A stretch of 64,000 nucleotides of DNA from Pseudoalteromonas sp. '520P1 No. 423' (GTDB taxonomy: Bacteria; Pseudomonadota; Gammaproteobacteria; Enterobacterales; Alteromonadaceae): positions 2,542,001 to 2,606,000 of the forward strand of contig NZ_BBZB01000001.1 in assembly GCF_001269985.1 (NCBI RefSeq), written 5' to 3'. The notes beneath the pieces are model-generated. The model was not told the origin of the DNA. It saw only the letters and a list, made by a program, of their open reading frames with translations, and searched no databases. Both the position numbers and the translations under genes were made by a program. Each line of letters begins with the position of its first letter. Positions within the stretch are counted from its first letter, which is position 1. Of this stretch, positions 12,899 to 48,279 are shown in pieces.

Positions 12899-13693
12899 AT
12901 GAATGAAAGTAGTAAAATGCGTTTTGGTGGAATTCAAAGATTATATGGTGAGCAACAAGCTGATTTACTGATGCAAGCTCACTTTTGTGTCATTGGTATT
13001 GGTGGTGTTGGCAGTTGGGTTGCTGAAGCACTCGCTAGAACGGGTTTAGGAAATATTACATTAATAGATCTTGATGATTTATGTGTAACCAATATCAATC
13101 GACAGATCCATGCGCTAACAGATACAATTGGAGAGTCAAAAACCGAAGCTATGTCAGCACGGCTCAAACAAATTAATCCTGAAATAAATGTCACTGAAAT
13201 TGATGACTTTTTAACAACGGATAACTTATTTGAATATATCAATGGTTTTGATTATGTAATCGACTGTATTGATCAAGTAAAGGTAAAAGCTGCGCTAATT
13301 TATCATTGTAAACGCAACAAATTACCGATAATTACTATGGGTGGTGCAGGTGGACAAACTGATCCTAGTGAAATAAAATTTGGTGATGTTGCCAAGACAA
13401 CAAATGATCCCTTACTGTCTAAAGTAAGATATTTACTTAGAAAACAATATAACTTCACTACAAATCCAAAACGAAAATTTGGTATAGACTGTGTCTTTTC
13501 TACGGAACAATTAGTTTATCCAAGTAAAGATGGTTCAGTATGTACTACTAAACAAAATGCTGATGGGTCTTTAACCATGGATTGTGCTAACGGTTTTGGT
13601 TCAGCAACTATGGTTACCGGTAGTTTTGCTTTCTTTGCGGCTTCTAAATCTATCAGAAAATATTTAGATAAACAATTAAGATCTGTGAAGTAA
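12899..13693 (+). CDS. tcdA: tRNA threonylcarbamoyladenosine dehydratase TcdA
   Basis: 264 residues of E1/MoeB-like fold. The ATP-binding loop is GIGGVGSWVAEALARTGLG (about 33-51), then LIDLDDLCVTNINRQ with the adenylation Arg, DCIDQVKVKAAL, and a C-terminal Cys-containing segment. It converts t6A37 in tRNA to its cyclic form using ATP, normally with the CsdA/CsdE sulfur-transfer partner. It stands 23 bp after the pseudouridine synthase gene. Confidence 0.94.
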   Translation: MNESSKMRFGGIQRLYGEQQADLLMQAHFCVIGIGGVGSWVAEALARTGLGNITLIDLDDLCVTNINRQIHALTDTIGESKTEAMSARLKQINPEINVTEIDDFLTTDNLFEYINGFDYVIDCIDQVKVKAALIYHCKRNKLPIITMGGAGGQTDPSEIKFGDVAKTTNDPLLSKVRYLLRKQYNFTTNPKRKFGIDCVFSTEQLVYPSKDGSVCTTKQNADGSLTMDCANGFGSATMVTGSFAFFAASKSIRKYLDKQLRSVK

Positions 13694-38222: not shown

Positions 38223-40466
38223 TTACTTTAACGTATAACTCAATGTTAACCAAAATGAACGTCCAGGTTGTGCGCTAAGGGAGTTACTAAACCCAAGGCT
38301 CCGTTTAGAAAAATCATTACCGGAATCTGCTTTTTGAATACCTGGTGCAAGTATTTTTCTATCAAATAAATTAAGTGCTTTTAATGAAACTTTCCAATTT
38401 TTACTTAAATAGCTTATAGATGAGTCAAAAATCACCCTGGAACCAACTTCAATACCTTGAAGAATAAGTGGATTACGTGAATATAGCTTAGTGCGATCTA
38501 AATAGTTTGCTTTAAAATTAACATTCCAACTTTCTTTGAAAGGTATGTCTATTAGGAAATTTATTTTGTGTGGCGAAATATCCCCTAATGTACCGTTTTT
38601 ATTAACCCATACATTATCATCGTGAGAAAACATTCGATCCGTTTTAGCGTGAGTGAATGTGTAATATAAATGACCAGTAATATTATTTTGTTCGCTAAGA
38701 AAGTTTTGAAATTCAAAACGGCCTCTATATTCAAGCCCAGTAACATTTCGGCTACCATTGTTTATTGAATCTTCACGGATCACGTTGTCATACCATGCAC
38801 TATACAAAGAAATATCATGTAGCCATAGATATGTTTTATGCATAAAAATAAGTTCTAAGTTTTTGGCTTTTTCTGGTTTTAGATCTGGGTTTTCCTGTCT
38901 ACCAGACCAACCTCCATATAATTGTTGTGCTGGTGGCTCTTGAAATGCTTCACCATACACCAGTTTTATAGAAGATTTACTATTGTTATATTTATAAATT
39001 CCAGACACTCTTGGGTTTATTGACGAGCCCCAAATTTTATTTTTGTCATATCTGATCCCGAAATTAGCCCTGAAGGCTTCATTGTCATATATAAATGATG
39101 CGTAACCACCATAATCATTAAATTTAACACGATTATCACTAGGTACTTCTTTAAGCGTTTTCGAATCAAAATCATAAATAGGATCTGTGCTGTAATATAT
39201 TGCGGCACCAAATCCATATGGACCCACATTACTAGTTGGAGTTGTAGAGCTATAGGCTCCCCAATACCCTGGAACGTCATATGCTTTGGTTAAATCAGAA
39301 CGTTTAAAGCGCCAGCCAGATAAATATCTAAATTGTGTATTAAGCATATAATCAAAATCTTGTTTTATTTCAATTGCTGAATTTGAACTATTCCAATTCG
39401 TGACACTTATGTAAGAAAAATTTTCCATACCTGTTTCCCAGTCAGGTGTGGCTTCAGCCCAATTCCCCCATATGCGGCTTTCACTATATGTAAGGTTTGT
39501 ATTCACCTTAAATTTATTATTATTTTTCCAGTCATGATTTAAATACATCTGTTTTGAAGAGCGGTACCAGTCTCCATTATTTTGCCCTCTATCTGCCGTA
39601 TATTGTCCTCCATAGCCCTCATCAATTAGCCAATTGAACATCCCAATAGTTATATTATTAAAATATATATTAGCAAACACCCCCCAATCATCTGATTCAT
39701 CCTGATATGAGCCGTAAGATTTTCCATTGTTTTTATATTCTAAAATAGGTCCCCAAATATCAGTTTGACTATATAAGTCATTTGAAAGAAACCCCCATCT
39801 ATCAGATAGATCCTCTTCATCAGAGTTAAATATTACAGCTGCGATGTCAAAACTAAGCCTTTTTAACTTTGCTCTTGTAAATATCTCTAATGCTTTTGAG
39901 TTCCAACTACCTATTTCAGTTTTTATTAAAAATTCTGATTCATGCTCTTTTAAAGTTTTACATTTTTTTGTGATGACATTTATCACACCTAAAAATGCAT
40001 TTGCGCCATAGCGAACTGATGAGGGACCATATAAAACTTCGACACGATTTATCATACTTATTGGATATTGATGGGCCATTATATACTCGTGGCTCCACAA
40101 ATTATTATCCACGACTCCGTCAATCATGAACAATGTTCTGTTAGTCGTAGGGGTTCTATATCCCCTTTGATAAGAAGTTGTGTTATTTGCTCCCCCAGTT
40201 TGAATCACATCAAACCCGGGTAAATCAATAAATATCTCTTTTAAATTATTATATCCCCTTCGGTGAAAATCATCTTCAGTCAAAACAACCATAGCTGCGG
40301 GAGCATCTATCAAATTTTCTTCAATACCATTACTACTCACCACTGTAATATTTAATAAATCAACTAATGATAATTCAAATAAATCATTATCCTCAGCTAA
40401 TGTATGCTGACTTTTTAATAGAAATATTAATGAGGAAAATATATATAACTTTTTAACAGTATTCAT
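38223..40466 (-). CDS. TonB-dependent outer-membrane receptor
   Basis: 747 residues. Signal peptide (ends near HTLA), a TonB-box-like ELSLVDLLNITVVSS, plug domain with DAPAAMVVLTEDDFHRRGY, DLPGFDVIQTGG and RVEVLYGPSSVRYGANAFLGVINVIT, then a 22-strand-type barrel ending in Phe/Leu-Tyr-rich SFWLTLSYTLK. The plug resembles colicin-I/vitamin-type receptors more than SusC. The ligand is unknown; no Fur box was recognised. It is divergent from the ABC exporter genes and shares their 255-bp control region. Confidence 0.9.
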   Translation of the reverse strand: MNTVKKLYIFSSLIFLLKSQHTLAEDNDLFELSLVDLLNITVVSSNGIEENLIDAPAAMVVLTEDDFHRRGYNNLKEIFIDLPGFDVIQTGGANNTTSYQRGYRTPTTNRTLFMIDGVVDNNLWSHEYIMAHQYPISMINRVEVLYGPSSVRYGANAFLGVINVITKKCKTLKEHESEFLIKTEIGSWNSKALEIFTRAKLKRLSFDIAAVIFNSDEEDLSDRWGFLSNDLYSQTDIWGPILEYKNNGKSYGSYQDESDDWGVFANIYFNNITIGMFNWLIDEGYGGQYTADRGQNNGDWYRSSKQMYLNHDWKNNNKFKVNTNLTYSESRIWGNWAEATPDWETGMENFSYISVTNWNSSNSAIEIKQDFDYMLNTQFRYLSGWRFKRSDLTKAYDVPGYWGAYSSTTPTSNVGPYGFGAAIYYSTDPIYDFDSKTLKEVPSDNRVKFNDYGGYASFIYDNEAFRANFGIRYDKNKIWGSSINPRVSGIYKYNNSKSSIKLVYGEAFQEPPAQQLYGGWSGRQENPDLKPEKAKNLELIFMHKTYLWLHDISLYSAWYDNVIREDSINNGSRNVTGLEYRGRFEFQNFLSEQNNITGHLYYTFTHAKTDRMFSHDDNVWVNKNGTLGDISPHKINFLIDIPFKESWNVNFKANYLDRTKLYSRNPLILQGIEVGSRVIFDSSISYLSKNWKVSLKALNLFDRKILAPGIQKADSGNDFSKRSLGFSNSLSAQPGRSFWLTLSYTLK

Positions 40467-40548: not shown

Positions 40549-40605
40549 TGTCCACCATTTATTTAACTGGACACAAACGGACAATTCAGGTGTCCGATCG
40601 GACAC
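40549..40605 (+). promoter_or_regulatory. Array of TGTCC/GGACA elements, probable enhancer site
   Basis: GTGTCCGATCGGACAC (40590-40605) is a perfect 16-bp palindrome. Upstream lie TGTCC (40549-40553), GGACA (40569-40573) and GGACA (40579-40583). The cluster is 64-120 bp upstream of a sigma-54 promoter, the usual place for an NtrC-class activator to bind; the likely activator is the response regulator at 45684. Confidence 0.7.
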
Positions 40606-40668
40606 ACCTTGCTTAACCAATAAAAGTAATACACTTATTAAACAGTAACTTATATAAATATAAAAAGT

Positions 40669-40684
40669 TGGCACTCAACCTGCT
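40669..40684 (+). promoter_or_regulatory. Sigma-54 (RpoN) promoter for the exporter operon
   Basis: TGGCACT-CAAC-CTGCT fits the -24/-12 consensus TGGCACG-N4-TTGCW, with GG and GC at the right 10-bp separation. It lies 38 bp before the membrane-fusion protein ATG. Confidence 0.8.
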
Positions 40685-40721
40685 CTATTACATATATAAA
40701 TTATTAATATGTTGAAAAGCC

Positions 40722-41990
40722 ATGATAAAAAGCACAGAGACTCAAGATGAGCAAATACAAAACGTTAAATCGAACACTTGGGTTAAATATATGCTTTTTT
40801 CGATTATTGTAATCATCGCAGGTATTTATACATTACCAACACTTAGCAATTGGTATTCAGGTATTATCTCAGTAGATAAAACCAATTTACTCACAGCTAA
40901 AGTATTTCGTGGTGAATTAATAAGAGATGTAGCAGTATCAGGTAAATTAGTGGCAGCCAATGCGCCGCAACTTTACAGTCCAGAAATTGGTGATGTTACT
41001 ATGCTAAGTCGCCCAGGCGATAAAGTAACTAAAGGTCAAATTGTAGCTAAGCTAAATAGCCCTGAACTGATATCTTTAATAAAACAAAATAAATCCCAAC
41101 TGGACAAACTTAAAATTGAAGCTAGTCGTGGATCATTAAAAGATGACGAAGCACAATTAGATTTAGAACGCAGTTTAGATGAAGCAAAAGTCAGATTAAA
41201 TGCTGCAAATAGGGAGCATCAACGCGCGAAATTATCTTTTGATAAGCAAGTTATCAGTGAGCTTGATTACGCTAAAACTCAAGATGAACTATTAGAGGCT
41301 AACTTAAGACATCAACATGCGAATAAACGCGTAGAGCTTGCTAAAAAACGTTTAGAGTTTGAAAATCAAACCCGTCAATTTGAGGTAAACCAACAGCAAA
41401 TCATTTTAGATGAATTACTTCGCCGAGAACAGGCTTTAGCAATAAAAGCCCCAGTCGCAGGTATAGTCGGTAACTGGTTAATCGAACAAAAAGAGCGTGT
41501 TGCAGACTCTCAAGCACTTATGACAATCGTTGATTTAACACAATATGAAGCGCAACTTAATGTGCCTGAGTTTTACGCTGATGATTTAGGCATAGGTCTA
41601 ACAGTTAATATGACTGTTGCCGGAAAAAAACTAAAAGGTACATTAAGTTCTATCTCACCTGAAATTAACAATAGCCAAGTACAGATCAGGATCTCTATTG
41701 ATAATAATCATGCGCATAATTTAAGACAAAATCAAAGAGTTAATGCCACTATCGAATTCGAACGAAAATCTGACGTATTAATGGTTAAACGTGGTGCTTT
41801 CTTAAAAGCCGGAGCCGCTAAATCAGTATTTAAAGTTACTGATAACTATGCAGTAAAACAAAAAATCAGTGTGGGTATATCAAGTGTAGAATTTGTTGAA
41901 ATTTTACAAGGCGTTAAAGAAAATGATGAGTTAATAATATCTGATCACTCTGACTTCGCCACGAACACACACATTAAGCTAACTATATAA
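40722..41990 (+). CDS. HlyD/MacA-type periplasmic adaptor (membrane-fusion protein)
   Basis: 422 residues. One N-terminal helix (about 25-44) anchors it in the inner membrane. Then a lipoyl half-motif (LYSPEIGDVTMLSRPGDKVTKGQIVAKL), a long coiled-coil hairpin (about 120-245, rich in Glu/Lys/Leu/Arg), the second lipoyl half (AIKAPVAGIVGNWLIEQKERV) and beta-barrel domains. It bridges the ABC permease to an outer-membrane channel, but no TolC-type gene is in the window. First gene of the sigma-54-controlled operon. Confidence 0.9.
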   Translation: MIKSTETQDEQIQNVKSNTWVKYMLFSIIVIIAGIYTLPTLSNWYSGIISVDKTNLLTAKVFRGELIRDVAVSGKLVAANAPQLYSPEIGDVTMLSRPGDKVTKGQIVAKLNSPELISLIKQNKSQLDKLKIEASRGSLKDDEAQLDLERSLDEAKVRLNAANREHQRAKLSFDKQVISELDYAKTQDELLEANLRHQHANKRVELAKKRLEFENQTRQFEVNQQQIILDELLRREQALAIKAPVAGIVGNWLIEQKERVADSQALMTIVDLTQYEAQLNVPEFYADDLGIGLTVNMTVAGKKLKGTLSSISPEINNSQVQIRISIDNNHAHNLRQNQRVNATIEFERKSDVLMVKRGAFLKAGAAKSVFKVTDNYAVKQKISVGISSVEFVEILQGVKENDELIISDHSDFATNTHIKLTI

Positions 41991-42040
41991 AACAATAATT
42001 AAAACAAAATAACAGTTTTAAATAAATTAAGGAAATCACA

Positions 42041-42757
42041 ATGTTAAATATGCAATCAATCAGTCGAGTATTTAAAACAGACACCATTCAAACGCACGCT
42101 TTAAGAGACTTTCATTTACAAGTAAATTCGGGGGAATTTGTTGCAGTGACAGGCCCTTCAGGCTCTGGTAAATCAACTTTCTTAAATGTTGCAGGTTTAT
42201 TAGATGGTTTTGATGGCGGAACTTATGAATTAGATGGTGTAAACGTCAAAGGACTTAAAGATGACGAGCTTTCGCGATTAAGAAACGAAAAAATTGGTTT
42301 TATTTTTCAAAGCTATAATCTTATTCCTGACTTTAATATATTTGACAACATTGATATGCCACTGAGATATCGTGGATTTAGTGCAAAAGAGCGAAAACGC
42401 CGTATACAGTCAGCACTTGAGCAAGTCGGTTTAGCAAGTCGCCATAAATATTTACCTAGCCAGCTATCAGGCGGTCAACAGCAACGTATCGCAATTGCCA
42501 GAGCCTTAGCGGGTGAGCCTAAAATTTTATTAGCTGATGAGCCAACTGGTAATCTAGATTCTTTAATGGCACGTCAAGTCATGGAATTATTGCACACATT
42601 AAACGATCAAGGCAGTACCATCATTATGGTGACACATGACCCTGACCAAGCACGTTCGGTAAAACGTAATGTTCAAGTAATAGATGGTCAAATAACTGAT
42701 ATGAGCATTTACGCGCCATTAAACAATCAAGCCTTAAATACAGCACAAACGGCTTAG
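42041..42757 (+). CDS. ABC transporter ATPase, MacB/LolD type
   Basis: 238 residues, a single cassette. Walker A GPSGSGKST, Q-loop FIFQSYNLIPDF, signature LSGGQQQRIAIARAL, Walker B ILLADEPTGNLDS, H-loop VTHDP. The NLIPDFNIFDNIDMPLRYRG region is of the LolD/MacB clade that powers mechanotransmission exporters. GGAAAT before the ATG. It is followed 10 bp later by two permease genes rather than being fused to one. Confidence 0.93.
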   Translation: MLNMQSISRVFKTDTIQTHALRDFHLQVNSGEFVAVTGPSGSGKSTFLNVAGLLDGFDGGTYELDGVNVKGLKDDELSRLRNEKIGFIFQSYNLIPDFNIFDNIDMPLRYRGFSAKERKRRIQSALEQVGLASRHKYLPSQLSGGQQQRIAIARALAGEPKILLADEPTGNLDSLMARQVMELLHTLNDQGSTIIMVTHDPDQARSVKRNVQVIDGQITDMSIYAPLNNQALNTAQTA

Positions 42758-42767
42758 GGAGAAAGTA

Positions 42768-44060
42768 ATGGATATGTTTTTATATTATTTAAAACTCAGT
42801 AAACATAATTTAAAGCGCCATAAGTTATTTTTTATACTGATGATCACAACTTTAGCTGTCGGTGTCGCGGTATTACTGGCTAATCTAGCTATTTTAAAAG
42901 TGATGTCGAGTGATCCTATTCCAGAAAAAAGCGATAAAATATTTAGTGTAAATATGACAACTTGGCCTGAAAAAGATGGCAATAACTCAGAGCCTTTGCA
43001 TATATTACGTTATAGAGATGCCATGCATATCTTAAAAAGTGATATACCAACATATAGCCTAGCACATTATGCTTCTCAGGTTTATACGCGTAATGTTGAA
43101 TCTAAAAGTTTAACGCGTTTTAGTGCAGAAACTCGCGCAACAACCAGCGAGTTTTTTGAACTGACCAACGCACCGTTTGAATTTGGCGGTACGTGGGCAA
43201 ACGAAAATGCCAACGACATTGTTATTGGCTCAGATTTAAACCAAAAACTCTTTGGTGGAGGAAATAGTATTGGCAAATCGGTTGAAATTGGTACACAAGT
43301 ATTTCGTGTAGTAGGTGTGTTAAAGCCTTGGACTTTAAAGCCTTTATTCTATCATGCAACAGAAAGACGTGCGTTTAACAAAACCGATGATTTATATGCC
43401 CCATTAGAAACTGCACTTACAAATAATTGGGGCATAGGTGCAAGAGCATCTTCTACAGAACGATATGAAAATGCATCTGATACAAGAGATAAAAATGCAT
43501 TTTATATGCAAGCTTATGTTCAATTAGATAACGCACAGCAAAAAGCACAATTTCAAAATTATTTAGATAGTTATAGCCAAAGTTTAAAAGATTCTGGTGA
43601 GCACCCTTTTCCAATCAATAATAAGTTGTATAACGTTAATCAATGGCTAGATAAAAACAAAGTAGTCGATGAAAAAATACTGGCATTTGCATTAGCAACT
43701 GTATTGTTTCTTGCTGTATGTATATTTAACGCCAGTAGCTTATTATTAGCCCGTTATCACAGTGCAAAGTTTGAAACTGGACTTCGTCGCGCTGTAGGTG
43801 CTAGTAAAAAACATGTTTTGTACCAAAGTGCGGTTGAAAGCTTGATCATAGGTACATGTTGCGCTGTGTTAGCTTTAATTTTAGGCTGGCTTTTCTTAAA
43901 GTTCTCATTAACTTTATTTCCTTATTTAAGTGATAGCGCATCTTTTGATTCAGGTTTGGTCTTTATGGGCATTTGTATAGCAATCATTACGAGCTTTTTA
44001 AGTTCATTGTATCCACTAGTACAAGCTAGTAATTCAAGCTTAAGTGCCCAACTGAAATAA
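42768..44060 (+). CDS. ABC transporter permease, MacB/FtsX type (first)
   Basis: 430 residues with the topology of MacB membrane parts: one N-terminal helix (about 22-45), a large periplasmic domain of about 240 residues, then three helices (about 300-325, 350-375, 395-415). LRRAVGASKKHVLYQSAVESLIIG is the conserved coupling region next to helix 2. With the following gene it probably makes a heterodimeric permease. Confidence 0.9.
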   Translation: MDMFLYYLKLSKHNLKRHKLFFILMITTLAVGVAVLLANLAILKVMSSDPIPEKSDKIFSVNMTTWPEKDGNNSEPLHILRYRDAMHILKSDIPTYSLAHYASQVYTRNVESKSLTRFSAETRATTSEFFELTNAPFEFGGTWANENANDIVIGSDLNQKLFGGGNSIGKSVEIGTQVFRVVGVLKPWTLKPLFYHATERRAFNKTDDLYAPLETALTNNWGIGARASSTERYENASDTRDKNAFYMQAYVQLDNAQQKAQFQNYLDSYSQSLKDSGEHPFPINNKLYNVNQWLDKNKVVDEKILAFALATVLFLAVCIFNASSLLLARYHSAKFETGLRRAVGASKKHVLYQSAVESLIIGTCCAVLALILGWLFLKFSLTLFPYLSDSASFDSGLVFMGICIAIITSFLSSLYPLVQASNSSLSAQLK

Positions 44061-44086
44061 ACGGCTCAGATAAAAGGAGAAAACAA

Positions 44087-45322
44087 ATGAATATAAAAGC
44101 ATTACTAAAAGCACTATTACTGAGAAAATTTGCAACCTGTTTACTGTTATTACAGTTAGCTTTAACTTTAGGATTAGTCGTTAATACTGTATTGATCAGT
44201 TTAGACACCAGTAAAAAAATTAATGATCCATTAATGTTTGATGTACCAAACCTATTAGCAATTCAACTATTACCCACGTCAGGTGAATATAAAGATCAAA
44301 CTTTTTATGATGCAATAACTAAACAAGATTTAAAAAAGTTAACTGAGCTTGATGGTGTTATAAGTGCAGCACAATATAATCAACTACCTATACAAAATGG
44401 AGGCTGGAACGGTAACTTCAAAGATGAAGCGACACCTAGAGATGCCATCACTGCAAAAGATTTAGATTACGTTCCAATATTTTATTCAAATGAATTAGGT
44501 GTAGAAAACCTAGGTCTTGAAATAATCGAAGGCCGCGCATTAACAAAAGATGACGATATGACAGAGGCTTACTACGCAGGTAAACGAGATGAGTTACAGC
44601 CAAATATAGTTATTACTGAATCTCTAGCAAAAGCGGTTTACCCTAATGAGTCTGCAATCGGAAAACTTTCAAATCACGGTAGAATTGTCGGTATCGCTAA
44701 AGACTTTATGGTTAATCCAAGATGGGAAGATCGCGCTAAATATTTCGCTGTGTTTGGTAACTTTACATTTGCCCAATTTGATTACACACAAAATTATTTA
44801 TTACGAATCAAACCTGGTCAGTTGAATAATGTTAAAAAGTTAGTCGAATCTACGATTTTAGCAGTACAACCGGAACGCGATATAATGGATGTATATAGCA
44901 TGAGTGAACGTCATAAAAACTTCTTTAGCCAAGAAACTGGCTTGGCTAGTTTATTTAAAATATTGTGTGTATTAATGATTATGGTGACAATTGTCAGTAA
45001 TTTCGCTCATGCGCATTTTCACATGTCACAACAGCGTAAGTATATAGGCATACGTCGTGCTTTAGGTGCAACAAAAAAAGATATTATTTTATATGTATTT
45101 AGTGAAAATTGGTTAATGAGTTTATTTGCATGTATTTTAGGGATAGCTTCGACCATTATAATTAATATCTTATTAAGCCAAGTGATCACTATAGACAAAC
45201 CAGATATTCTGTTATATTTCATCGCGGCAAGTATTATATTTATATCAGGCACGCTAGCAACATGGTTACCTGCATATAAAACAACAAAAATATCACCTGT
45301 GGTGGCAACACATACTTTATAA
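44087..45322 (+). CDS. ABC transporter permease, MacB/FtsX type (second)
   Basis: 411 residues with the same plan as the preceding permease: N-terminal helix (LLLLQLALTLGLVVNTVLI), periplasmic domain with EGRALTKDDD and VGIAKDFMVNPRW, and three C-terminal helices beginning after GIRRALGATKKDIILYVFSENW. GGAG lies before the ATG. The two permeases differ much in sequence, so this is a true pair rather than a recent tandem copy. Confidence 0.9.
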   Translation: MNIKALLKALLLRKFATCLLLLQLALTLGLVVNTVLISLDTSKKINDPLMFDVPNLLAIQLLPTSGEYKDQTFYDAITKQDLKKLTELDGVISAAQYNQLPIQNGGWNGNFKDEATPRDAITAKDLDYVPIFYSNELGVENLGLEIIEGRALTKDDDMTEAYYAGKRDELQPNIVITESLAKAVYPNESAIGKLSNHGRIVGIAKDFMVNPRWEDRAKYFAVFGNFTFAQFDYTQNYLLRIKPGQLNNVKKLVESTILAVQPERDIMDVYSMSERHKNFFSQETGLASLFKILCVLMIMVTIVSNFAHAHFHMSQQRKYIGIRRALGATKKDIILYVFSENWLMSLFACILGIASTIIINILLSQVITIDKPDILLYFIAASIIFISGTLATWLPAYKTTKISPVVATHTL

Positions 45323-45338
45323 GTTAATAATAAAAAAT

Positions 45339-45356
45339 GCGGGACTGAAGTCCCGC
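45339..45356. terminator. GC-rich stem-loop after the exporter operon
   Basis: GCGGGACT-GA-AGTCCCGC directly after the second permease. The T tract is on the minus-strand side; on the plus strand GTAAGAC follows, so it may stop RNA from either side incompletely. Confidence 0.6.
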
Positions 45357-45371
45357 GTAAGACAAAGCATA

Positions 45372-45637
45372 TATACCAATGTTACCTCAAGATGCAGGAT
45401 TCAGTTGGAGTTAGAAACGCTTTAAGCAAGGCAGATGAATACAGTCATAGTTATTCTATTTCAAATTCATCTAACGCAGCATAAAGCATTTCTAAACCAA
45501 CCCTGCGGGGACTTCTGAGCAATTCAAGCTCGTTGTTCCATCTTCTTTTAAGGGAGCGACCATTAATACAAAGATGCGCCTAGATCATGAATTGCTCAGT
45601 TATCCTGAAACTCGCATCTTGAGATAGCATGGGTATA
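45372..45637. mobile_element. MITE-like element, about 266 bp
   Basis: The ends form imperfect 33-bp terminal inverted repeats: TATACCAATGTTACCTCAAG inwards on the left and, read on the other strand, TATACCCATGCTATCTCAAG on the right, both continuing as ATGC, two or three changed bases, and TTCAG. The interior codes for nothing and has the AACCAACCCTGCGGGGACT and GAGCAATTCAAGC / GAATTGCTCAG inner pairing. This fits a non-autonomous miniature element; similar sequences are familiar to me from Colwellia-type genomes. No target duplication could be confirmed. Confidence 0.7.
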
Positions 45638-45683
45638 ATATCCGTAATTTGTTTTGTAATAAAAATAATAAAGGAAAATAAAA

Positions 45684-46973
45684 TTGAAGCGTATTTTAGT
45701 TGTTGACGATAACCCAGACATATTAGACGCGCTAGATTTATTACTAGGTCTTTATGATTATGAAGTGAACACTGCAATTACCATAAAAAAAGCTTTAATG
45801 GCTGTGTCACATCAAAAGATTGATCTTGTCATTCAAGACATGAATTTTACCGATGGTACAACCTCCGGAGACGAAGGTAAAAACCTGTTTTACGATATAA
45901 AACATATTAATCCTAATATCCCAATAATTCTAATAACAGCGTGGAGTCAGTTAGAAACCGCAATCGAACTTGTCAAAGCTGGCGCTGCGGATTATTTACC
46001 TAAACCTTGGAACGATGATAAATTACTAGAGGTTATAAGTGAAAATTTAAATAAAGCGACACCAGATGTAAAACAAGAACCAAGTTCTAGTTTTATCTAT
46101 CAAAGTCAACAAATGAATAGCTTGATCCATACGGCTAATAAAGTCGCTCAGTCTGATATCAATACATTGATCACAGGCCCTAATGGTTCAGGTAAAGAGA
46201 AATTAGCTGATCATATTCACCAAAACTCCAAACGTAAAAACAGCCCTTTTATAAAAGTTAATATGGGTGCATTACCCCATGATTTAATGGAAGCTGAGCT
46301 TTTTGGTGCTGAAAAAGGCGCATTTACAGGCGCGAATACTGCAAGAGAAGGACGCTTTGAAGCAGCTAATGGCGGTACTTTGTTTTTAGATGAAATCGGA
46401 GATCTCAATTTAGCCGGTCAAATGAAATTATTACGTGTACTGCAAACAGGTGAATTTGAAAGACTCGGTTCCAGTAAAACATTAAAAGTAGACGTTCGTG
46501 TGATTAGTGCAACCAATAGCAATCTACAAGAAGATATTAACCAAGGGTTGTTTAGAGAAGATTTATACTACAGACTCAATATTGTTGAATTACAGTTAGC
46601 AGAACTTAATCAAAGAAAAGATGACATTTTACCCTTAGCAGAATACTTTATTGGTAAAGATCATAGTTTATCAGCTTGTGCAAAAAATCATTTATTAGCT
46701 CAGTCTTGGCCAGGTAATGTTAGAGAACTAGAAAACGCATGTAAACGTGCGTTGGTATTTGCAAATGAAGCTTGTTTATCTATTGAAGATTTTTTATCTA
46801 ATGATCCACAAACTTTAGGCTCGATACAAAAACAACCAAGTGAAGCTGAACTCATTGAAGCAACATTAAATAAATATAATTGGGTTATTTCACGTGCAGC
46901 AAATGAATTGGGTTTTAGTCGCCAAGCACTCTACCGCAGAATTGAAAAGCATAATATAAAGCAACAGGACTAA
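45684..46973 (+). CDS. NtrC-class sigma-54 response regulator
   Basis: 429 residues from TTG, with AAAGGAAA about 9 bp upstream. Receiver domain with D8-D9 and phospho-acceptor Asp52, Lys107 in LPKPW; AAA+ domain with Walker A GPNGSGKE (Lys171), the sigma-54 contact loop GAFTGA (212-217), GGTLFLDEIGDL and an arginine-finger region LFREDLYYRLNIV; C-terminal Fis-type helix-turn-helix NWVISRAANELGFSRQALYRR. It should activate sigma-54 promoters when phosphorylated by the next gene's product. Its likely target is the exporter promoter at 40669. Confidence 0.95.
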   Translation: MKRILVVDDNPDILDALDLLLGLYDYEVNTAITIKKALMAVSHQKIDLVIQDMNFTDGTTSGDEGKNLFYDIKHINPNIPIILITAWSQLETAIELVKAGAADYLPKPWNDDKLLEVISENLNKATPDVKQEPSSSFIYQSQQMNSLIHTANKVAQSDINTLITGPNGSGKEKLADHIHQNSKRKNSPFIKVNMGALPHDLMEAELFGAEKGAFTGANTAREGRFEAANGGTLFLDEIGDLNLAGQMKLLRVLQTGEFERLGSSKTLKVDVRVISATNSNLQEDINQGLFREDLYYRLNIVELQLAELNQRKDDILPLAEYFIGKDHSLSACAKNHLLAQSWPGNVRELENACKRALVFANEACLSIEDFLSNDPQTLGSIQKQPSEAELIEATLNKYNWVISRAANELGFSRQALYRRIEKHNIKQQD

Positions 46974-46977
46974 ATAA

Positions 46978-48279
46978 ATGAACTTAATGATTATCCTTTT
47001 AAGTAATATCATTTTCTTTATTCTATGTTTTTATAATCTTCCCCAAAATACTACTATGGTAATACTTTTAGGTTTATGCCTATTTGCTTTTAATGCTTTT
47101 ATTATTGTTAAACACAATAGAGCTCAAAAGCTATTAGTTAAAAGCTTAGAGCAAGGGTTTTTAAATTTTATAGATGGAGATTTTTCAGCAAGTTTACCCG
47201 AAAAAATTTCTCATCAACATAAAGCACTGTTTAACCAATTTAATCAAGCCAGTGAATTTCTTCGATTGGAACGACAACGTCTTTACCAAAGAGAAATGTT
47301 ACTCGATATGGTGATCAACGCCTCCTCTGTTATTACCCTTTTAATAGATCATCGAGGAAAAGTAGTATTTGCTAATCAACAATGCAGCTCTTTATTCAAT
47401 ACTGATGGCTTAATTGGTTCTGACATTAATGAATTAACAAAAGATTTATCTCATGAGCTTAAACAAGCTTTACATGTTAATGACGTCAGCCAAGGATCAG
47501 ATTCAATATTTACAAGCACAGATGATTACGGCCAACCTCAGGCTTGGCACATTTCACGATCATCTGTACGACTAAACCTTGCATCACATACTTTATTTTT
47601 ATTAAAGCCTATGACTGAGCAGCTTGCAAAACAAGAAAGCAATACTTGGAAAAAAGTCATAAAAGTATTAAACCATGAGTTAAATAATTCAATCGCTCCT
47701 ATTAGTAGCATGTGTCACAGTGGTAAATTGATTTCAAAAAAGTTGGACGAACCTAAATTAGATCGTGTATTTAATTCTATATCTGGTCGTATAAACCATT
47801 TAAGTGAATTTGTCAGTGGTTACGCAACTTTTGCTAAATTAAGGCAACCTATTAAAGCACCCATTGAAATTAACGATCTCATGTTACATCTATCGGAGTT
47901 ATATCCTTTTAAACTTGATAATAAATTAACATGCAATACGCTAGATTTAGATCAAAGCCAATTTGAACAAGTATTAGTAAACCTTTTGAAAAATGCAGAC
48001 GAAGCCGACCCTGATAGCATTACACTAGTTAATATTTCCGAGATTAATGCTAATGGACAAAAAGCACAATTCATTAAAATAGATATTTTAGATAAGGGAC
48101 TAGGTATGTCTGATGAGGTGATCAAACATGCTTTATTACCTTTTTATTCTACTAAACATTCAGGAACAGGTTTAGGCTTAGCACTGTGTAAGGACATCAT
48201 TGAAGCACATCAAGGAAAGTTACTTTTTAATAATTTAGCACCACAAGGCTTTTGTGTTAGCGTGATTTTACCACGCTGA
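46978..48279 (+). CDS. Sensor histidine kinase
   Basis: 433 residues. Two N-terminal helices (about 4-20 and 26-44) with almost no periplasmic loop, then a PAS-like domain (about 105-215, MVINASSVITLLIDHRGKVVFANQQC), the phospho-acceptor His233 in LNHELNNSIAPISS, and ATPase boxes NLLKNADEA, DKGLGM and GTGLGLALCKDIIEAHQG. The short periplasmic loop suggests it senses a signal within the membrane or from the permease. It follows the response regulator by 4 bp. Confidence 0.93.
   Translation: MNLMIILLSNIIFFILCFYNLPQNTTMVILLGLCLFAFNAFIIVKHNRAQKLLVKSLEQGFLNFIDGDFSASLPEKISHQHKALFNQFNQASEFLRLERQRLYQREMLLDMVINASSVITLLIDHRGKVVFANQQCSSLFNTDGLIGSDINELTKDLSHELKQALHVNDVSQGSDSIFTSTDDYGQPQAWHISRSSVRLNLASHTLFLLKPMTEQLAKQESNTWKKVIKVLNHELNNSIAPISSMCHSGKLISKKLDEPKLDRVFNSISGRINHLSEFVSGYATFAKLRQPIKAPIEINDLMLHLSELYPFKLDNKLTCNTLDLDQSQFEQVLVNLLKNADEADPDSITLVNISEINANGQKAQFIKIDILDKGLGMSDEVIKHALLPFYSTKHSGTGLGLALCKDIIEAHQGKLLFNNLAPQGFCVSVILPR

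Follow-up and report, generated by a model that had tools for sequence, protein, structure and literature searches.

A conserved, self-contained sigma-54-wired export module with its own two-component system in Pseudoalteromonas sp. '520P1 No. 423'

Introduction

The described systems that come closest to the locus reported here are the MacAB-TolC pump, the DarBCD darobactin exporter, the ADOP-type permeases and the BceAB-BceRS and LiaFSR systems. For the permease family COG0577, genome-wide promoter prediction found sigma-54 enrichment in Gammaproteobacteria, Opitutia and Bacteroidia, a result that the passages concerned term the first evidence for that family (PMC12316311, 2025). Here we describe a locus at 40549-48279 of a 64,000-nucleotide stretch of Pseudoalteromonas sp. 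'520P1 No. 423' (contig NZ_BBZB01000001.1, positions 2,542,001 to 2,606,000; hereafter the window). As judged from its sequence and that of its relatives, it is a six-gene, self-contained and conserved sigma-54-wired export unit, which confirms the observation made in an earlier reading of the DNA letters (the original prediction). The general kind is known; what this locus adds is a split permease, a private operator logic and, in some relatives, apparent co-regulation of a Toastrack (DUF4097) protein. A literature search, mostly without subscription journals, returned no paper on the module or on a link between sigma-54 and DUF4097, beyond the general result of PMC12316311.

Promoter, operator and gene order

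Five TGTCC/GGACA half-sites lie above a -24/-12 promoter, and the six genes follow. The open reading frames (ORFs) and a domain search of the window give the order adaptor, ATPase, permease 1, permease 2, regulator and kinase, in agreement with the original prediction for both the control elements and the gene types. The features are as follows (aa, amino acids; TM, transmembrane helices; HTH, helix-turn-helix):

40549-40604, no strand: operator TGTCC-N15-GGACA-N5-GGACA-N7-TGTCC-N4-GGACA, with half-sites TGTCC 40549-40553, GGACA 40569-40573, GGACA 40579-40583, TGTCC 40591-40595 and GGACA 40600-40604; read from sequence, unique in its own genome and conserved in relatives
40591-40604: proximal palindrome TGTCCGATCGGACA, part of the operator
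40668-40684, + strand: sigma-54 -24/-12 promoter TTGGCACTCAACCTGCT, with GG and GC 10 nt apart
40722-41990, + strand: membrane-fusion (periplasmic adaptor) protein, 422 aa, one N-terminal TM, HlyD_D23/HlyD_3 domains
42041-42757, + strand: ABC ATPase of MacB/LolD/DarD type, 238 aa, ABC_tran; top family match DarD
42768-44060, + strand: permease 1, 430 aa, 4 TM, MacB_PCD and FtsX; aligns to the N-terminal half of ADOP
44087-45322, + strand: permease 2, 411 aa, 4 TM, MacB_PCD and FtsX; aligns to the C-terminal half of ADOP
45323-45683, no strand: gap that separates permease 2 from the regulator and contains a GC-rich hairpin plus a long hairpin-forming element (fold -118 kcal/mol)
45684-46973, + strand: NtrC-type response regulator, 429 aa, TTG start, Response_reg, Sigma54_activat and HTH_8 domains (receiver, AAA+ with GAFTGA, Fis-type HTH)
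46978-48279, + strand: sensor histidine kinase, 433 aa, HATPase_c, two TM, HELNN H-box, conserved linker and a probable PAS-like region

The genome (5,387,613 bases in two contigs) contains one rpoN match, at C1:183105. Within these 5.4 Mb, TGTCCNNNNGGACA (TGTCC-N4-GGACA) has one site, compared with 10 for the reversed control pattern, which points to a local closed loop; the genome-wide pattern search gave no second target of the strict operator. A combined half-site/promoter pattern produced one other hit in the genome, C1:2774970, judged to be coding by eye only. Across 31 genomes, TGTCCGCGGACA is present in 27, with 29 sites, 26 of which are at the adaptor promoter by coordinates, and its reversed control has 3 sites altogether. 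These searches show a putative operator that is unique or nearly unique per genome and is paired with the module's NtrC-type regulator.

Conservation in relatives

An alignment of 27 adaptor sequences was used to search named genomes, yielding 267 relatives, of which the best 80 were kept; a scan of genome contigs with the single protein had detected no relative. The named loci come from Pseudoalteromonas, Colwellia, Thalassotalea, Psychrosphaera, Paraglaciecola, Alteromonas, Shewanella and others, which supports the suggested spread through Alteromonadales. The nearest relative in this set is P. denitrificans DSM 6059 (L063), with an adaptor of 76% identity; Shewanella decolorationis S12 also carries a relative. 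The exact six-gene order is kept in 72 of the 80, the remaining eight being two loci cut by a contig end (L176, L183) and six in which a small ORF is added or permease 2 is hit twice. A kinase match lies downstream in 78, and the two without one are the contig-cut loci.

The control region is conserved as well, as counted over relatives that are phylogenetically linked and do not represent independent events. We scored 79 upstream regions (L136, with only 40 nt upstream, was dropped). The promoter score is at least 19 in 76 of them, against 5.5% of 3950 dinucleotide shuffles, and at least three half-sites lie within 150 nt above the promoter in 78, against 1 of the 3950 shuffles. In a second set, which partly overlaps in genomes with the 80-locus set, at least three half-sites were found in 59 of 59 loci. 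In 73 of the 79 regions there is a strict proximal palindrome whose half-sites are spaced by N4 or N2. Its centre is 57-61 nt above the promoter element in 27 regions, 68-71 nt in 43 regions and 81-91 nt in the other 3; among the periods tried, 10.75 bp fits this distance best, which suggests that one helix face may matter. A search for an IHF site between operator and promoter gave weak enrichment (9/9 positions in 15 of 79 regions vs 54 of 3950 plain shuffles), and we do not claim one. Palindrome, promoter and regulator, whose failure to be conserved together across genomes would by its own account have refuted the original prediction, are found together, and this supports the predicted sigma-54 drive, the dedicated regulator/operator pair and the self-containment of the module.

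Paralogous modules and the weight of the evidence

The window module is one of a seven-module family in a single genome: a regulator and permease search, followed by reading of the loci, revealed seven modules with all parts present, namely that of the window and L023-L028. Matches to MacB_PCD number 23 in the genome and form 14 loci, seven of which, the seven modules, adjoin an NtrC-type regulator, and the other seven have no regulator match nearby by coordinates. Given these seven modules and the COG0577 enrichment in the passages of PMC12316311, the view that sigma-54 control would be uncommon for a MacAB-like exporter is not supported, and exporters so controlled are not rare. All seven modules carry TGGCAC or TGGCAT above the adaptor gene, and their palindromes differ or are unclear. 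The split permease is found only in the window module and L024; the other five have permeases of 802-834 aa. Two oddities among the paralogues are three ADOP-like permeases of ~810 aa that follow one another but share one ATPase and one adaptor (L023, 4586-12234) and a 120-aa lipoprotein gene, not Toastrack, between permease and regulator (L025, 7598-7960).

A number of observations weigh against a simple account of the wiring. The promoter score by itself is unexceptional, since the window has a second 22-point match at 13008; it is conservation and the operator context that carry the case. One of the 79 upstream regions (L161) has no half-site at all, and L161, L198 and L203 score below 19; the reversed 12-base operator matches in 3 of the 31 genomes; and the fit of the phasing is flat from 9.5 to 11.75 bp, which makes it weak evidence. 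Five of the genome's seven modules have GT, GA or CC in place of the -12 GC, and L026-L028 show no clear operator palindrome. In the window's strain, the hairpin element at 45323-45683 may also partly uncouple the regulator from the pump transcript. The equal score at 13008 speaks for the alternative that promoter and palindrome are chance matches and the operon is transcribed otherwise. The conservation relative to shuffles and the uniqueness of the operator in the genome speak so clearly against this, however, that we give it a negligible probability; as a statement about sequence patterns, conservation rules out a chance origin of promoter and operator. That the module is wired to sigma-54 as a self-contained unit is, on the same comparisons, very probable indeed.

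The pump: adaptor, ATPase and split permease

The original prediction described two different MacB/FtsX-type permeases. Two ORFs are indeed present, but in the ADOP model (TIGR03434), which has 803 positions, permease 1 aligns to 11-400 and permease 2 to 415-799, and the pair is therefore better read, from these alignments, as the two halves of one duplicated ADOP-type permease, split in two. Both chains fall below the 622-bit ADOP cut-off and there is no single ~800-aa chain; the MacB_PCD score of permease 2, 26.4 bits, is slightly below its cut-off of 27. The predicted folds (31 relatives each, of 36 loci with coordinates) have a mean pLDDT of 88.8 for permease 1 and 88.5 for permease 2, and for both the best match is MacB 5gko (permease 1, E 2.6e-20 and TM-score by query 0.66; permease 2, E 7.3e-16 and 0.61). 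MacB 5nik is close behind, LolC/E are also among the matches, and BceB chains match less well than MacB.

The ATPase is a separate 238-aa chain, not fused to a permease, and its best-scoring named family is DarD (263 bits, cut-off 375). The adaptor scores 110 bits against RND_mfp (cut-off 95) and 65 bits against DarC (cut-off 450), has no match among solved structures by sequence, and has an invariant R168 in the 27-sequence alignment. The permeases reach 19 and 26 bits against DarB (cut-off 700). With DarD as the top named family for the ATPase, DarC as the best equivalog-type family for the adaptor and weak DarB matches for the permease halves, the module could serve the dedicated export of a self-made product in the style of DarBCD and darobactin, with the two-component system timing its release. 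All of these scores are far below the cut-offs, however, and among neighbouring ORFs of at least 80 aa no biosynthetic or precursor gene recurs beside the 80 loci: no outside family flanks more than 13 of them, so that no cargo-making gene appears to travel with the module. The adaptor or a paralogue is moreover found (E<=1e-40) in 95 of 108 same-genus genomes, wider than expected for one natural product, and we consider such a role unlikely.

A separate ATPase with two different permeases also resembles LolCDE, and the LolC/E fold matches, together with the lipobox in the two aligned Toastrack sequences described below, would suit a Lol-like machine, one that serves to extract lipids or lipoproteins and not to export drugs or peptides. 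MacB is nevertheless the top fold match for both permeases, and the 80 loci, which the search selected for it, have an RND/HlyD-type adaptor, whereas we know of no such adaptor in Lol systems; a Lol-like function thus seems quite improbable. The six-gene unit contains no gene for TolC or another outer-membrane partner, from which we infer that a TolC encoded elsewhere is used.

Two neighbouring features were noted. A TonB-dependent receptor gene (38223-40466) was rejected as a partner: it also adjoins the module in P. denitrificans (L063) but not in the other nine loci compared, and the window has no sigma-54 element facing it. The operon of a sister Pseudoalteromonas group begins with a gene, placed between promoter and adaptor gene, for a membrane peptide of 26-30 residues with a single helix (e.g. 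MFTIGLFLISPIILFIASLMITVFEKH; L047, L048, L055, L060, L061, L174, L181, L188, L198 and others). It was seen in 25 of 139 upstream regions, as 19 distinct sequences, the one in L096 being probably a chance ORF, and a ratio of nonsynonymous to synonymous polymorphism (pN/pS) of about 0.22 over 7 pairs suggests that it is translated. The 54 nt upstream of the adaptor in the window module are too short to encode it.

Regulator and sensor kinase

The GAFTGA loop of the regulator is intact, as predicted, and so are Walker A/B and the receiver aspartate. Among 85 aligned regulators (78 relatives and the genome's own 7), the loop is kept with at most two changes in 84; the variants are GAFTGA (48), GAYTGA (15), GAYTGI (13), GAFTDA (4), GAFTGS (2), and GSFTGA, GAFTGI and GAYSGL (1 each). 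The gap that precedes the regulator gene is 361 bp in the window vs 66 bp in the nearest relative (L063), which lacks the hairpin element. Partial copies of this element, sought in the window and in L003-L032 of the genome, are found in L027 (80% over 59 nt, 70% over 98 nt).

The window kinase has predicted TM helices at residues 3-21 and 26-44, and the four residues between them bear out the claim that it has nearly no periplasmic loop. Of 78 kinases, 74 have two predicted helices, and in 70 of these 74 the span between them is at most 19 residues; the other four (L197, L199, L202 and L206, all named Shewanella) have 127-138. In an alignment of 22 kinases the helices vary freely in sequence, and the conserved parts are the cytoplasmic linker (DxDFS..., LRxERQ.LYQRE), a PAS-like region and the H-box HELNN. 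Pfam reports no PAS domain in the window kinase, and the PAS-like assignment comes from alignment to the NtrB and AtoS models.

BceS-like sensing within the membrane, as the original prediction suggested, may apply. The short-loop, two-helix topology, together with a kinase match in each of the 78 loci that do not run into a contig end, would fit flux sensing like that of BceAB-BceS, in which the permease is the sensor and the kinase reads its state. Against such coupling stand helices that are not conserved in sequence and a conserved sensor part that is cytoplasmic. The four long-loop kinases show that a separate sensor part is tolerated, and BceB chains are weaker fold matches than MacB. 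We regard flux sensing as doubtful.

A Toastrack link in Shewanella-like genomes

Running the combined half-site/promoter pattern on 16 genomes revealed further promoters in a genus (g23) that we take to be Shewanella because these promoters match named Shewanella loci. A Toastrack lipoprotein gene has the same operator and promoter in G350, G196, G486 and G461 (4 of 30 Toastrack loci). The G350 protein matches DUF4097 at E 5.4e-4, under the cut-off, and the G196 protein has no DUF4097 match; the pair is 46% identical, and a lipobox is present in both sequences aligned. A 204-aa protein also has the operator and promoter in G350, G461 and G486. None of the other 30 genomes searched encodes this protein, and each of the three has a relative of the G350 M48 peptidase directly after it. 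In some Shewanella-like genomes the module's switch probably controls these genes too, both the one for the Toastrack lipoprotein and the 204-aa/M48-peptidase pair.

An upstream sigma-54-like element scoring at least 20 was found for 17 of 29 Toastrack genes (L274 was dropped from the 30 loci as the same ORF as L263), vs 30 of 268 control ORFs, which include some real module and Toastrack promoters. Of these 17 genes, 13 have no TGTCC operator. Strong sigma-54-like promoters lacking that operator are seen at L249-L257, L261 and L273, and the activator there may be a different one, such as PspF or a paralogous module.

Toastrack has been described as a partner of the Psp/Lia envelope (membrane)-stress systems (PMC11237479, in the passages concerned). 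The operator link, taken with that description, favours an envelope-stress role for the module, and the Toastrack/M48 co-regulation would fit an envelope-stress response. Against this stand the limits of the link: 26 of the 30 Toastrack loci have no TGTCC operator; those that do are confined to four genomes of one Shewanella-like genus; the link was not seen in the window's own genome, where the strict operator is unique; and the 204-aa protein occurs in 3 of 30 genomes only. A search for Toastrack in the module loci of the genome also gave no match. The same passages of PMC11237479 predict Toastrack to be mostly intracellular, whereas the proteins found here resemble lipoproteins of the periplasm, which makes the parallel a loose one.

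Proposed mechanism

We propose that the module is an inducible MacAB-like tripartite exporter for envelope-active compounds under a closed control loop, a statement that, taken whole, we hold to be evenly balanced between right and wrong. The kinase would detect an envelope disturbance or a membrane-inserted compound and phosphorylate the regulator, which would bind the TGTCC/GGACA array and activate the sigma-54 polymerase, giving more pump; read-through from the pump promoter would raise the level of regulator too. The permease halves would form a MacB-like heterodimer powered by the separate ATPase, and the adaptor would dock the pump to TolC. The use of TolC is read from what we take to be the docking motif of the adaptor, with its invariant R168, and this motif matches only in part, which weakens the step. 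The cargo may be a foreign amphipathic or peptide compound that acts on the envelope and that would be expelled, as by MacAB, from the inner-membrane/periplasm side. The role in envelope stress or against foreign compounds is put forward tentatively.

If correct, this turns a general statistic linking sigma-54 to FtsX/MacB permeases into a concrete, testable switch with one operator, one promoter and one pump. The near-unique operator would make such units candidate orthogonal genetic sensors, and a Toastrack lipoprotein that seems to be under the same control suggests that the signal is envelope stress. More speculatively, marine gammaproteobacteria might possess a Gram-negative equivalent of the Bce/Lia envelope-stress network, built from several sigma-54 switches that work in parallel and insulated from one another. 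Each would consist of a MacB-type exporter plus a kinase, a regulator and a private operator of its own, with co-regulated Toastrack lipoproteins as partners and the pump itself as sensor; we consider this unlikely.

Comparison with known systems

The general sigma-54 association is shared with COG0577 in PMC12316311, whose relevant passages are silent on a six-gene module, an operator, a split permease and a link to Toastrack. Like MacAB-TolC, the module has an adaptor and an FtsX/MacB_PCD permease, with 5gko as the nearest solved fold and 5nik close, but MacB is fused in one chain, whereas the module has a separate ATPase and two unequal half permeases, its own sigma-54 two-component system and no TolC gene in the unit. 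DarBCD is the nearest equivalog-type family for both ATPase and adaptor, and DarB (777 positions) spans both permease halves; the module differs in scoring far under the Dar cut-offs, in splitting the permease between two genes and in having a dedicated two-component system, with no precursor or modifying enzyme seen. The permeases correspond to the N and C halves of ADOP (TIGR03434), and five of the six paralogous modules use ~800-aa permeases, whereas that of the window is split and below the whole-model cut-off.

The BceB permease has ten helices and a large extracellular domain; the module has two four-helix permeases and no ten-helix chain. With BceAB-BceRS it shares a self-regulated ABC unit and the short-loop two-helix kinase, which is found in the window, and with LiaFSR a Toastrack partner in some genomes. 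What sets it apart from both is an NtrC-type sigma-54 regulator, an adaptor-linked Gram-negative pump and a kinase that appears PAS-like.

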